From Caenorhabditis remanei (lineage: Eukaryota > Nematoda > Chromadorea > Rhabditida > Rhabditidae): a stretch of DNA of 64,000 nucleotides. The stretch spans positions 9,486,001-9,550,000 of the forward strand of contig NC_071332.1 in assembly GCF_010183535.1 (NCBI RefSeq), read 5' to 3'. The notes below the pieces were generated by a model. The model searched no databases. It was given only the letters and a program-made list of their open reading frames with translations, and was not told where the DNA came from. Every line of letters begins with the position of its first letter. The stretch's first letter is position 1. Positions 50,051 to 54,249 of this stretch are shown here, one piece after another. Both the position numbers and the translations under genes were made by a program.

Positions 50051-51120
50051 ATGACCGTGTCAGAGCTGGAACATAGCCCAGAGAATTCGCTGCTTCCGGC
50101 AACATATTCTGTGCAAGTTTATATTTTGTGAAAAACATCGTTGGATAGAACTAGAATAGTACGCTAATTAACCAGAAATTACACTTTGAGATAACAGACA
50201 AACATCCAATTTTGAAAGCTACCAATTGTGTTCACTTTTCTCTATTCCCATTTCTCACATTTTATTTCAGTGTCGATTTCCCTCAGCTCATGAATGTTGT
50301 GGATGAACTGTGCAAGAACGTTATCGAAGAGAATTCGATCTCGGCAAAACAGAGTTTGGTAAGTTCAGTTTTAAGCCTAATTCATTTCTTTTATTCTTGA
50401 ATTTCAGGAGAATCTGCGAGACCAAGTTTCCACTGTCATTGAGCATAACTACGTTCAGCTCTTTGCTAAGATCCAAACTGTTCTCTACTTTGTCTATGGT
50501 CAATACTACGAAGCTGAAAGAATCATCTTTTTTGGATATTTCGATCAAGTCCATCATTCGTTCTTCCAATACATTTATAGGAAAATTCAAGAGAATAAAA
50601 CAGGAACGGTAAGTTATCGAATCAATTCAATCACGGAAAACATGACAATTTATTTTTTCAGAAGCTTGATCCCATGGATTACTGTCGCTTTCCTCTTTCA
50701 ATCGATCCAATTTACCAAGACGGCTTGACGAAAAGCATGTGCGAGTACCTGAAGAACTACTACATGTCCAGACGCAACTCAAAGAAAGCTCTCAAACTAA
50801 AATCGCTCGCAGCAAAAACTGGATTGTCCCTCGATGTCATTGAAGCTCGTTTCAAAAAGTGCAGAGATGAATTACCAGTGAGAAGACAAGCGAAAAAAAG
50901 GATAAACAATGAAAGAGCGGACGAAGAAGATTACTATGAGTACGAGAACTTCGATTTCTACCAAGAATGCTTCAACAATCCGGAATATCAATTGTACCCT
51001 ACTCCACCATCTAGTGGCTTCAGCGTCTATCATCAATTCCCTCTTACCCGTGTCCCTCTCGATCAGCCACTCACTATCCAGATTCCAGACGAAACCCAGT
51101 TCCCTATCTCTTTCATTTGA
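50051..51120 (+). CDS. Divergent SIX-like homeodomain protein 1
   Basis: Exons 50051-50127, 50271-50358, 50408-50608 and 50662-51120 join in frame to 274 residues. The N-terminal half follows the SIX-domain helix plan: QLMNVVDELCKNVIEENSIS, then TVLYFVYGQYYEAERI (compare the LKAQ..A..NF.ELYR block of ceh-34), then HHSFFQYIYRKIQE. The second half aligns with a SIX homeodomain: IDPIYQDGLTKSMCEYLKNYY lies where IWDGEE...C.....L..WY is expected, followed by LAAKTGLSLDVIEARFKKCRDE for LAEKT.LT..QVSNWFKNRRQR. Trp48 is Arg and Asn51 is Lys. The tail is acidic and tyrosine-rich (ADEEDYYEYENFDFY). It is probably nuclear, with altered or lost DNA binding. Assignment is by eye and not by search. Confidence 0.7.
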
Positions 51121-51168
51121 AATGTGCATACACAAGTGTGATTAATTTCTCAAGGTTTTAAAACTCCT

Positions 51169-51183
51169 CCCCCCCCCCCCCCC
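51169..51183 (+). repeat. Homopolymer run of 15 C
   Basis: Fifteen consecutive C about 50 nt after the stop of SIX-like gene 1, probably in its 3' UTR or the intercistronic spacer. Long G/C homopolymers are uncommon in this AT-rich DNA; in Caenorhabditis they need the DOG-1 helicase for stability. Confidence 0.9.
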
Positions 51184-51352
51184 ATTTCTTCTTTCTGACA
51201 GACATATACGCATCCATTTCATTGTAATAACCCCAATCATGTCGTAAATTTAGATAAACTTTGATTAAAATTCTTTTGATGGCTTTTCACCAAATCGTTC
51301 GATTTATCTTTGTTTTTTTTTTTCATCTCAAAATTAGAAGTTCTTTCCAGTA

Positions 51353-52116
51353 ATGAGAATCATAGAAACCGACGAACAAGCAGCTACCGAAGATGAAGTA
51401 TTGTCGTTGGTTCTTGATGGAACATTCCAACCTTCATTACTGGTAAGAAATTGGTCTTGGTAAAAGTTGAAAATGTTCAAAATCTTTTCTATAGAAGGCG
51501 TATATTGAACACATTTCTGATGAAAACAGTTTGAAATGGAACTTTCAAATCGCTGAAGCAATAATGGAAAATAAACCGTTACAAGTCCTTAAACTAGCAG
51601 GAAGTCATCAATTCAACGGTCAGGATCAGAAAGAAATCGCTCTGATTTTAGTTGGCTGTGCATGTGAAATGATTAATATCGAGACATCCGAGGTGTCCAA
51701 AACGGAAGTTCAAAACAATGGTCCCCAGGAAATTGATCGCTCCCAAATTAAAGTTTCCGGTAAAAACTCGAAAACCTCTGGCGATAATAAAGATCCAAAA
51801 TCCTTGAAGACAGGGTTAAAGGTGAGAAAAAACGTATAAACAAAATCAATTAATGGAATTTTTCATAAAATCACCCGTCAACAGCTTACCCGTCATTACG
51901 ACAGATACGATGGACACATATCTGAAGGATGTGTTCAAATGTACTCGGAGAAATACGAAGAGGATCCTGCGAACATCCACCTTTATTTCCAAAACCTCGC
52001 CAACTCAACTCCGTGAGTTGCTTCTTGTCAAATCTGTTGTTGAAATCAATATTTACAGAACTAGAATCAGAGCTCGCAACGCAACAAGTTTGAATCGAAA
52101 GAAGAGAGAAAGTTGA
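51353..52116 (+). CDS. Divergent SIX-like protein 2, homeodomain eroded
   Basis: Exons 51353-51442, 51495-51821, 51885-52012 and 52059-52116 join in frame to 200 residues. The N-terminal half (EVLSLVLDGTFQPSLLKAYI, WNFQIAEAIMENKPLQVLKLA, ILVGCACEMINIE) parallels SIX-like protein 3 (WKLEIAVKLREGKPKEALKLA, LVQCALRHIEID). The C-terminal part, ISEGCVQMYSEKYEEDPANI with HLYFQNLAN, aligns with the homeodomain helices of protein 3 (FSPEEIQQLSLKYNVTEKRL with RLYFSNRRR), but the basic recognition residues are gone. A TTTCCAG acceptor ends 2 nt before the ATG. The gene begins 233 bp after SIX-like gene 1, a spacing typical of nematode operons, so SL2 trans-splicing is possible. Confidence 0.65.
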
Positions 52117-52682
52117 TGACGCCAAAAATTTGGTCACGAGTTGTATTGTTTTTAAATATGTTCTCAGACCGTTTTCTCACATATAGTCACTCATTTAATT
52201 ACAGTATCCCTGCATGTTCAGCATTTGCCCTCCATCATCTCAATACTATTTCCTTGTTTTCTCTCTTCTCCATATTTTTGTTGGCATTCGACTTGTTTTC
52301 GAAACAGTATCATATGCTCTCTGAGTATCTTCTATTTTTTGTTATAATCCTTCTCTCTATTGAGACGTTCTATTTCCTTAATACAGTATCTCACTCTTTC
52401 CTTTTCGATTACCGACTATTGAGGTCAGATGCGCTACTGGGTACTGTTGGGTGGTCAGTGGATTTCAGAAAAACAAAGAGCGGCCGACAGTTTCAACTAA
52501 ATGCAAACATTGGATGCATATGTCATTTGATTTCTGATGCCCCTCAGAAGACATTGACCCATGAGGACATCAATAGGTGCGAATCTTTACGAGAAGAGAT
52601 TATGAGAGAAGAGGAGGGTCAGAATAACAAACGATATTGTGTCATGACATCTGCAAAGGAAGCGAGCAACGGACACGATTAG
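52116..52682 (+). other. Unrecognised 188-codon open frame
   Basis: An uninterrupted frame starts at an ATG overlapping the stop of SIX-like gene 2. The first half is Ser/Phe/Leu-rich, likely translated pyrimidine-rich DNA. The second half (about 52430-52682: LLGTVGWSVDFRKTKSGRQF, CICHLISDAPQKT, LREEIMREEEGQNNK) looks more protein-like. It could be chance, or a decayed exon. No family recognised. Confidence 0.22.
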
Positions 52683-52926
52683 ATGCGCAAGTGTTTATGT
52701 GAGAGGATCAATAATAATTAGGTGTGAAGCATGTCACACGTGTATGTGAACTTTCGAAAATATGTAATAAGGATAATGAAATTATCCTGGTTGAATCCGG
52801 AGAGGGAAATTTGTGAACAAAAAATTCAAGAGAATGAATCGATTATGAGGACCACCTAGACTCGGAAATAGACTTTGTCTTTTAGGCTTTGTTTGGGTCA
52901 TATTAGACGTTTTGAAGAGCCTCCGG

Positions 52927-53325
52927 TTAAAGATTTTCAAGAAGTCGATCATTTTGTTCCGGTTTGGGGTGTTTAGGCGCCTTCCAAATCAATAACTCAA
53001 CCTCGCACATATCGTGAGAGAAGTTAATTCCAGCTTTTAATTTTACTGCCTTCAGCTTTGCAATCAAAGTTGCGAAGCTGAAGCCTCGGTTTTTCTTGAA
53101 TAAGTTCATCCGATTTAGCTTCTGGGAAGTATCAAATTGCATCTATTTACTGACACATCGGTGGTTTTGATATGGTCCCCGCGATCTTGTTTTACAACTA
53201 GGCAGCTCCTTACAAACCACCCTAAACTTCTCATCCAATTGACCACATATCTCTGCTTCTCTTCTCTCATTGAAACAACAGTATTGAACTGCCAATAGGC
53301 GCACAATTTCACTTTTGGCCCTCAA
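52927..53325 (-). pseudogene. Open frame interrupted by one in-frame stop
   Basis: On the minus strand one frame runs about 133 codons from ATG 53325 with a single TAG at about 53143-53145 in the middle. The two halves (CCFNERREAEICGQLDEKF... and KKNRGFSFATLIAKLKAVKL...LLIWKAPKHPKPEQ) both look protein-like rather than low complexity. It lies between SIX-like genes 2 and 3 on the opposite strand. No family is recognised. It may be a pseudogene or part of an unseen spliced gene. Confidence 0.3.
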
Positions 53326-53462
53326 CCTTCTCTCATTTTCTCATCTGTTCATTCATCGGCTTTTGATTTCGAAATATCACGGAAACATGAATGAGTTAGT
53401 GTTTTTATTCCATTTTTTCAGAAGACAATAGAATTTTCAGAGAAATCAACTTTGTTCAATCG

Positions 53463-54249
53463 ATGGTTCTCTCTGCAACTCTTGAAGGCCGAACTTCAAC
53501 TGGTGGAATCAGAGAGTTGTGCTCTCACATGCCTGATAAAGACATGTTTCGCTGGAAATTAGAAATAGCTGTGAAGTTGAGAGAGGGAAAACCGAAAGAG
53601 GCTTTGAAGTTGGCCGATGTTTTCAAAGATGATGGAAAGTACCCAGACGGAATCGAAACGTTGGTTCAGTGTGCACTTAGACATATTGAAATTGACAATC
53701 TGCTCTTGAAAGACGTAAGTCATTTTCAAGCTTTTGACATTAGAGAAATCTTTCAATTTAGGGAATCGATCCTCCACCACCTGCATCTTTCACACCGGAT
53801 AAAAATTATGTTCATATCCCGTGGAATCTTATTTTCAATTATCAGAAGACACAAGAACACAACATGTTAGACTTTCAGAAAAACGAAGATGGGAGCACAA
53901 TGTCCTTGCCGGTTAGAGCTCATTTTCAGCATTCACAGATACCGTAATCTTTCTGGATTCCAGACTAAAACTCGCTTTCAGCTCCAGCTTCTTTGTCCTG
54001 ATGAAAACACGATGTTTAGTCCCGAAGAGATACAACAACTCTCACTCAAGTACAATGTAACAGAGAAACGTCTGAGACTATACTTCAGTAACCGTCGGAG
54101 ACATTTCAGAAAATTGTAAGATACAGCGTGAAATCACCGATCACAACCTTTATTTCAGGAAAAAAGATCGAAAGACGACTGAGCCAAATGATATTCAAAC
54201 CACTTGGGAGACAACCGAAATGAGCAAATCTCTAATAACCCTCAATTAG
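53463..54249 (+). CDS. Divergent SIX-like homeodomain protein 3
   Basis: Exons 53463-53714, 53762-53911, 53964-54115 and 54159-54249 join in frame to 214 residues. The N-terminal half matches the helix plan of a SIX domain (GGIRELCSHMPDKDMFRWKL, then REGKPKEALKLADVFKDDGK). A Pro-rich linker follows, then a homeodomain-like segment: FQLQLL, FSPEEIQQLSLKYNVTEKRL and the recognition helix RLYFSNRRRHFRKL. Trp48 is replaced by Tyr, but Phe49, Asn51 and Arg53 are kept, so this copy could still bind DNA. Of the three degenerate SIX-like genes it has the best-preserved homeodomain and it is clearly paralogous to SIX-like protein 2. It is predicted to be nuclear; partner and targets are unknown. Confidence 0.7.

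Follow-up and report, generated by a model that had tools for sequence, protein, structure and literature searches.

In the nematode Caenorhabditis remanei, a row of altered homeobox genes lies about 20 kb from two standard SIX1/2-type genes. SIX genes rank with the best-conserved regulators of development. Within the window analysed here, a stretch of 64,000 nucleotides (C5:9486001-9550000, contig NC_071332.1), the row includes three adjoining plus-strand genes, each with a C-terminal half of homeodomain type and with a graded loss of residues at homeodomain positions 48-53. Genes 2 and 3 are paralogous to one another and to genes A-D at a second locus, and gene 1 gives a colinear SIX-like match. 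Genes 1-3 are probably strongly diverged homeobox genes, likely derived from a duplicated SIX1/2-type gene, whose products are predicted to combine an N-terminal domain, helical and likely protein-binding, and a homeodomain, which would still bind DNA in gene 3 but likely without specificity, if at all, in genes 1 and 2. The genes concerned are as follows.

50051..51120, plus strand: gene 1, diverged SIX domain and homeodomain, 269 amino acids; exons 50051-50112, 50271-50358, 50408-50608 and 50662-51120
51353..52116, plus strand: gene 2, five-helix N domain and degenerate homeodomain, 200 amino acids; exons 51353-51442, 51495-51821, 51885-52012 and 52059-52116
53463..54249, plus strand: gene 3, N domain like that of gene 2 and homeodomain; exons 53463-53714, 53762-53911, 53964 or 53982-54115, and 54159-54249
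C5:2480464-2487191: second locus, genes A-D, about 7 Mb from genes 2 and 3 on the same contig
29414..30690, minus strand: ceh-34-like canonical SIX1/2 gene, six exons; Pfam SIX1_SD 2.4e-41
23692..25171, minus strand: ceh-33-like canonical SIX gene, its 5' part outside the model

An earlier note on this DNA had proposed three plus-strand genes, and open-frame splice models place them at exactly 50051-51120, 51353-52116 and 53463-54249, genes 1 and 2 being annotated proteins. CRE_27224 corresponds to gene 1, with 2 substitutions and one missing codon across its 241 amino acids; it lacks the first 27 residues of our model, in which exon 1 (50051-50112) requires an inferred GC donor. Gene 2 corresponds to GCK72_018530, which has 0 substitutions over 191 amino acids and is 9 residues shorter at intron 2, and to CRE_27225, which has 4 extra residues and 5 substitutions over 200 amino acids. 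Matching against protein databases was word-based and required five-residue words in common; more diverged orthologs may escape it. It returned 1, 1 and 6 matches, the five named ones all from C. remanei and three unnamed, and gave no named homolog outside this species. For gene 3 it gave no named protein, the single partial match being an unnamed protein that differs at 3 of the first 84 residues. By eye, gene 3 would gain an in-frame N-terminal extension over 53387-53462 from a candidate small first exon that starts with an ATG at 53387 and is spliced to an acceptor ahead of 53441. No paper was found for five locus tags searched, nor any title on such a SIX-derived array in the literature searched, which was mostly judged by title.

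A SIX origin of gene 1 is well supported. Against a SIX profile built from human SIX1 and four C. remanei SIX proteins, with significance judged from shuffled sequences, gene 1 as a single sequence scored 32.3, a value that 0/100 shuffles reached (mean 13.3, standard deviation 2.2, maximum 21.5). Residues 71-185 align colinearly to profile columns 44-169, SIX domain then homeodomain. The SIX part alone scored 19.4 (maximum 18.8, 0/150 shuffles as high). Two homeodomain profiles were used here and below, one broad and one restricted to SIX homeodomains, with 60 shuffles per test; the homeodomain part of gene 1 scored 26.2 on the SIX-homeodomain profile (shuffle maximum 18.4, 0/60), and gene 1 scored 20.3 on the broad one, above 60/60 shuffles. 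Gene 1 retains Lys50, and its introns follow the ceh-34-like order, phase-2 then phase-0 around SIX helix 1, at a spacing of 30 versus 26 residues; it is the phase-2 intron that uses the inferred GC donor. Pfam returned neither a SIX1_SD nor a homeodomain match for gene 1, and a search of PDB sequences gave weak matches (best E-value 0.22) with one homeodomain among them, LHX9 (E 0.78). A single-sequence predicted structure of gene 1 was set aside, its predicted local distance difference test score (pLDDT) being 39.

The roles of Asn51 and Arg53 in homeodomain helix 3 are well established. Positions 48-53 read WFKNRR in SIX1, RFKKCR in gene 1, YFQNLA in gene 2 and YFSNRR in gene 3, which confirms the graded loss that had been claimed. 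At the second locus they read YVNNLR in gene C and RISYLT and RVNRMK in the two segments of gene D (D1 and D2); in genes 6 and 7, described below, they read FFDKRR and YFEDRR, and FFNRIT. Among these nine copies, Asn51 and Arg53 occur together only in gene 3 and C, whereas in the alignments gene 2 keeps Asn51 only and gene 1 Arg53 only. Since the DNA-contact residues are lost to differing degrees, some copies would still bind DNA and others likely act through partner proteins alone.

The proposed homeodomain nature of the C-terminal halves holds for all three genes on the broad profile, where gene 3 scored 37.4 and gene 2 17.9, both above 60/60 shuffles, gene 2 narrowly (maximum 17.6). It is not borne out by Pfam for genes 1 and 2: gene 2 had no homeodomain or SIX match, and gene 3 reached 21.6 bits (1.9e-4) for Homeodomain, slightly below the cut-off of 22.9, with no SIX1_SD match. 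On the SIX-homeodomain profile, gene 3 scored 18.9, above 60/60 shuffles, and 9/60 shuffles were as high as gene 2. The predicted structure of gene 2 has three helices in its C-terminal half, in keeping with a homeodomain fold; the AlphaFold2 model has pLDDT values of 66-84 in the N domain and 76-82 in the homeodomain.

A search of the 130-Mb C. remanei genome with gene 2, the scope of all our genome-wide searches, found gene 3 at 6e-4 and two places at the second locus at 2.7e-7 and 8.1e-5. The duplication and fast divergence beside the ceh-33/34-like genes suggested earlier is supported, but it was not only local, with paralogs of genes 2 and 3 at C5:2.48 Mb. Genes A and B have the N domain, and their models end without a recognisable homeodomain; gene D (GCK72_016894, "Homeobox domain-containing" in UniRef) has two homeodomain-type segments. 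On the SIX-homeodomain profile, C and both D segments scored 34.9, 28.4 and 26.3 (0/60 shuffles each). A profile of gene 2 and genes A-D gave 20 matches at E <= 10 among PDB sequences, 20/20 of them homeodomain proteins (best E 0.018), with SIX1 last. Gene D alone aligned in register with the SIX profile, but 2/40 shuffles were equally high. A strong SIX match of another alignment, A2, was discarded as circular, because A2 includes the ceh-34-like homeodomain as a row. The proportion of synonymous differences (pS) exceeded that of nonsynonymous differences (pN) in 7/7 paralog comparisons, two of which include gene 2 and none gene 1 or 3, and in which synonymous divergence (dS) was infinite in three and 4.19 in one; for C versus D, dS was 1.07 and nonsynonymous divergence (dN) 0.42. 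Retained function of the family is therefore favoured.

The homeobox row is longer than first described, with homeodomains in gene 6 and, beyond the window, in gene 7.

55328-56112: gene 4, two-exon protein (gene model)
56572..57277, plus strand: gene 5, candidate only, with a phase-0 intron ahead of a basic helical segment
61502..63838, plus strand: gene 6, ten exons, two homeodomain-type segments
L042:1505-3327 = C5:9550505-9552327, directly past the window: gene 7, homeodomain-type C-terminus, one splice joined by hand
L042:5782-7355 = C5:9554782-9556355: gene 8, two borderline homeodomain-like segments

Gene 6 exceeded the Pfam Homeodomain cut-off over two stretches (5.2e-6, 26.6 bits); its segments, in which Asn51 is changed to Lys and Asp, were equalled on the homeodomain profiles by 5 and 3, and by 0 and 4, of 60 shuffles. 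Gene 7 scored 22.3 and 29.7 on the two profiles (0/60 shuffles each), with a Pfam homeodomain match below the cut-off (0.0069), and has an intron after the residue preceding position 45, as does the ceh-33-like gene. For gene 8, shuffles were as high in 1/60 and 9/60 cases for the first segment, which has phase-0 introns before it and inside helix 3, and in 4/60 and 3/60 for the second. Gene 4 had no family match and no homeodomain support, and gene 5 also lacked homeodomain support, with 48/60 and 11/60 shuffles as high on the homeodomain profiles. SIX parts considered for genes 6 and 7 were rejected (110/150 and 45/150 shuffles as high).

Genes 1, 2, A and B resemble the ceh-34-like gene in having a phase-0 intron after helix 1. 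The ceh-34-like gene also has a phase-0 intron before the homeodomain, 38 residues ahead of position 48; among 11 candidate segments (g8b left out), one lies 39-40 residues ahead in seven, namely C, D1, D2, both gene 6 segments (g6a, g6b), g7 and g8a. The distance is 39 (acceptor 53964) or 33 residues in gene 3, 33 in gene 2 and 47 in gene 5, and gene 1 has no such intron. Thirty non-SIX homeobox loci served as controls; the 20 usable ones had 0 T-rich acceptors at 38-40 residues, and one (L073) had a bare AG. These controls were chosen as best full matches, and by our own count 18/140 genome homeodomain matches begin at profile positions 8-12; the pre-homeodomain intron is therefore not SIX-specific.

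Neither Pfam nor profile comparison detects a SIX domain in genes 2 and 3, and comparing the N domains of genes 2, 3 and A-D with SIX by profile gave nothing usable; likewise, the whole-gene comparison with the SIX profile was non-significant for genes 2, 4, 5, 6 and 8. The SIX-class Lys50 is replaced by Gln50 in gene 2 and Ser50 in gene 3. A tree built from 25 homeodomains (12 non-SIX, 5 SIX and 8 of the 12 candidate segments, with g5, g6a, g8a and g8b left out) pairs gene 2 with gene 3 as sisters (97/76), on the opposite side from SIX, where g1 and g6b also fall. All these results weigh against a SIX origin of genes 2 and 3. The same tree groups C, D1, D2 and g7 with SIX (93/95), and its end branches are very long (g1, the longest, 10; g6b 7.7; g7 7.6; g2 6.6). 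Forcing all eight candidates together with SIX cost 1.59 log units and was not rejected (approximately unbiased test, p-AU 0.39), nor was a SIX clade including g1 but excluding g2, g3 and g6b (p 0.24) or one including g2 and g3 but excluding g1 and g6b (p 0.29). One SIX origin for all eight is allowed by this test. The five helices predicted for the N domain of gene 2 fit a SIX domain but also TPR-type folds; in Foldseek the model ranked SIX1 fourth, its fold tied with TPR and Fis1. Of what was proposed earlier for all three genes, a SIX-domain N-terminal half shows up in the sequence of gene 1 alone, where a SIX origin is well supported. For genes 2 and 3, in which sequence comparison reveals no SIX domain, that origin is plausible; the predicted fold agrees with it, as does one intron of gene 2. 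The N domain of gene 3 (53463-53714) also has a likeness to a synthetic PPR repeat protein, with a summed E of 8.5e-9 but 0.35 for the best single stretch, likely through a common helical-hairpin pattern.

On a rival view, gene 1 alone is SIX-derived, and genes 2 and 3 belong with the second-locus genes to a distinct family of rapidly evolving worm homeobox genes, their TPR-like N-terminal hairpin being SIX-like by convergence. The undetectable SIX domain, the TPR and Fis1 tie of gene 2, the tree position of the gene 2 and gene 3 homeodomains outside SIX, and the PPR likeness of gene 3 and of the gene 2/A-D profile (0.03) all speak for it. However, the homeodomains of the paralogs C and D group with SIX and exceed all shuffles on the SIX-homeodomain profile, the phase-0 intron after helix 1 is common to genes 2, A, B and the ceh-34-like gene, and genes 1-3 adjoin one another; we regard convergence as possible but rather unlikely. 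A reading of the genes as pseudogenes, homeobox duplicates in decay and functionless today, would agree with the lost helix-3 contact residues and with the absence of named homologs outside C. remanei in word-based matching. It is very improbable given open exons with worm-type splice sites, GC donor excepted, and a frame kept in the second-strain proteins of genes 1 and 2. Simple degeneration is further disfavoured because gene 3 keeps Asn51 and Arg53 and because pS exceeds pN throughout the paralog comparisons.

Elsewhere in the window, open frames at 40800-45770 resemble by eye tandem seven-helix receptor genes on both strands, and those at 35000-39100 have a transposon-like look. At C5:5717432-5720678, two SIX genes on opposite strands, separated by about 3 kb, are presumably unc-39-like, judging by resemblance. 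Dense groups of homeodomain matches at C4:22.93-22.95 Mb, C2:16.82-16.83 Mb and C4:7.41-7.42 Mb are possibly further arrays of divergent homeobox genes.

Gene 1 shares with the SIX1/2 class (ceh-33, ceh-34, human SIX1) a colinear SIX-like domain and homeodomain, Lys50 and the intron phase order around SIX helix 1, and the row is physically linked to the ceh-33/34-like genes. Unlike that class, genes 1-3 have no Pfam SIX match and an altered helix 3, and genes 2 and 3 have neither Lys50 nor a detectable SIX domain. The Caenorhabditis Six1/2 locus is described as having duplicated into ceh-33 and ceh-34 (PMC8989417), and C. elegans is listed with four SO/SIX genes (PMC4448998). The C. elegans homeobox genes of the divergent and HOCHOB groups, compared by description only, are similarly fast-evolving, clustered, sometimes multi-homeodomain and without clear orthologs elsewhere; in that account they are unassigned to SIX, and the HOCHOB cysteine linker joins two homeodomains (PMC4448998). 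Mammalian ETCHbox genes, as described in PMC8208926, offer an evolutionary parallel as strongly diverged tandem copies of a single conserved homeobox gene, although they derive from CRX (PRD class) and are unrelated to the C. remanei row. A more speculative and unlikely extension is that an ETCHbox-like class grew from a SIX1/2 gene in C. remanei, comprising two arrays with single and double homeodomains at successive stages of DNA-contact loss, the surviving SIX-type domain competing in CEH-34/EYA-1 complexes.

We favour a history in which a SIX1/2-type gene duplicated and its copies diverged fast beside the ceh-33/34-like genes, genes 2 and 3 perhaps among them. The N domain may serve as a partner-binding module. 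In SIX1, V17E in the first SIX helix is reported to abolish Eya binding (PMC8293042). The dominant-negative or DNA-independent roles as Eya partners suggested earlier are conjectural. Gene 3 would bind DNA with an altered preference (Ser50 for Lys50), and genes 1 and 2 may work without binding DNA specifically, perhaps as competitors for CEH-34 partners. A graded series of diverging SIX copies in one worm would make it possible to ask which parts of a SIX protein are dispensable, and in what order, and whether copies unable to grip DNA regulate the parent gene.
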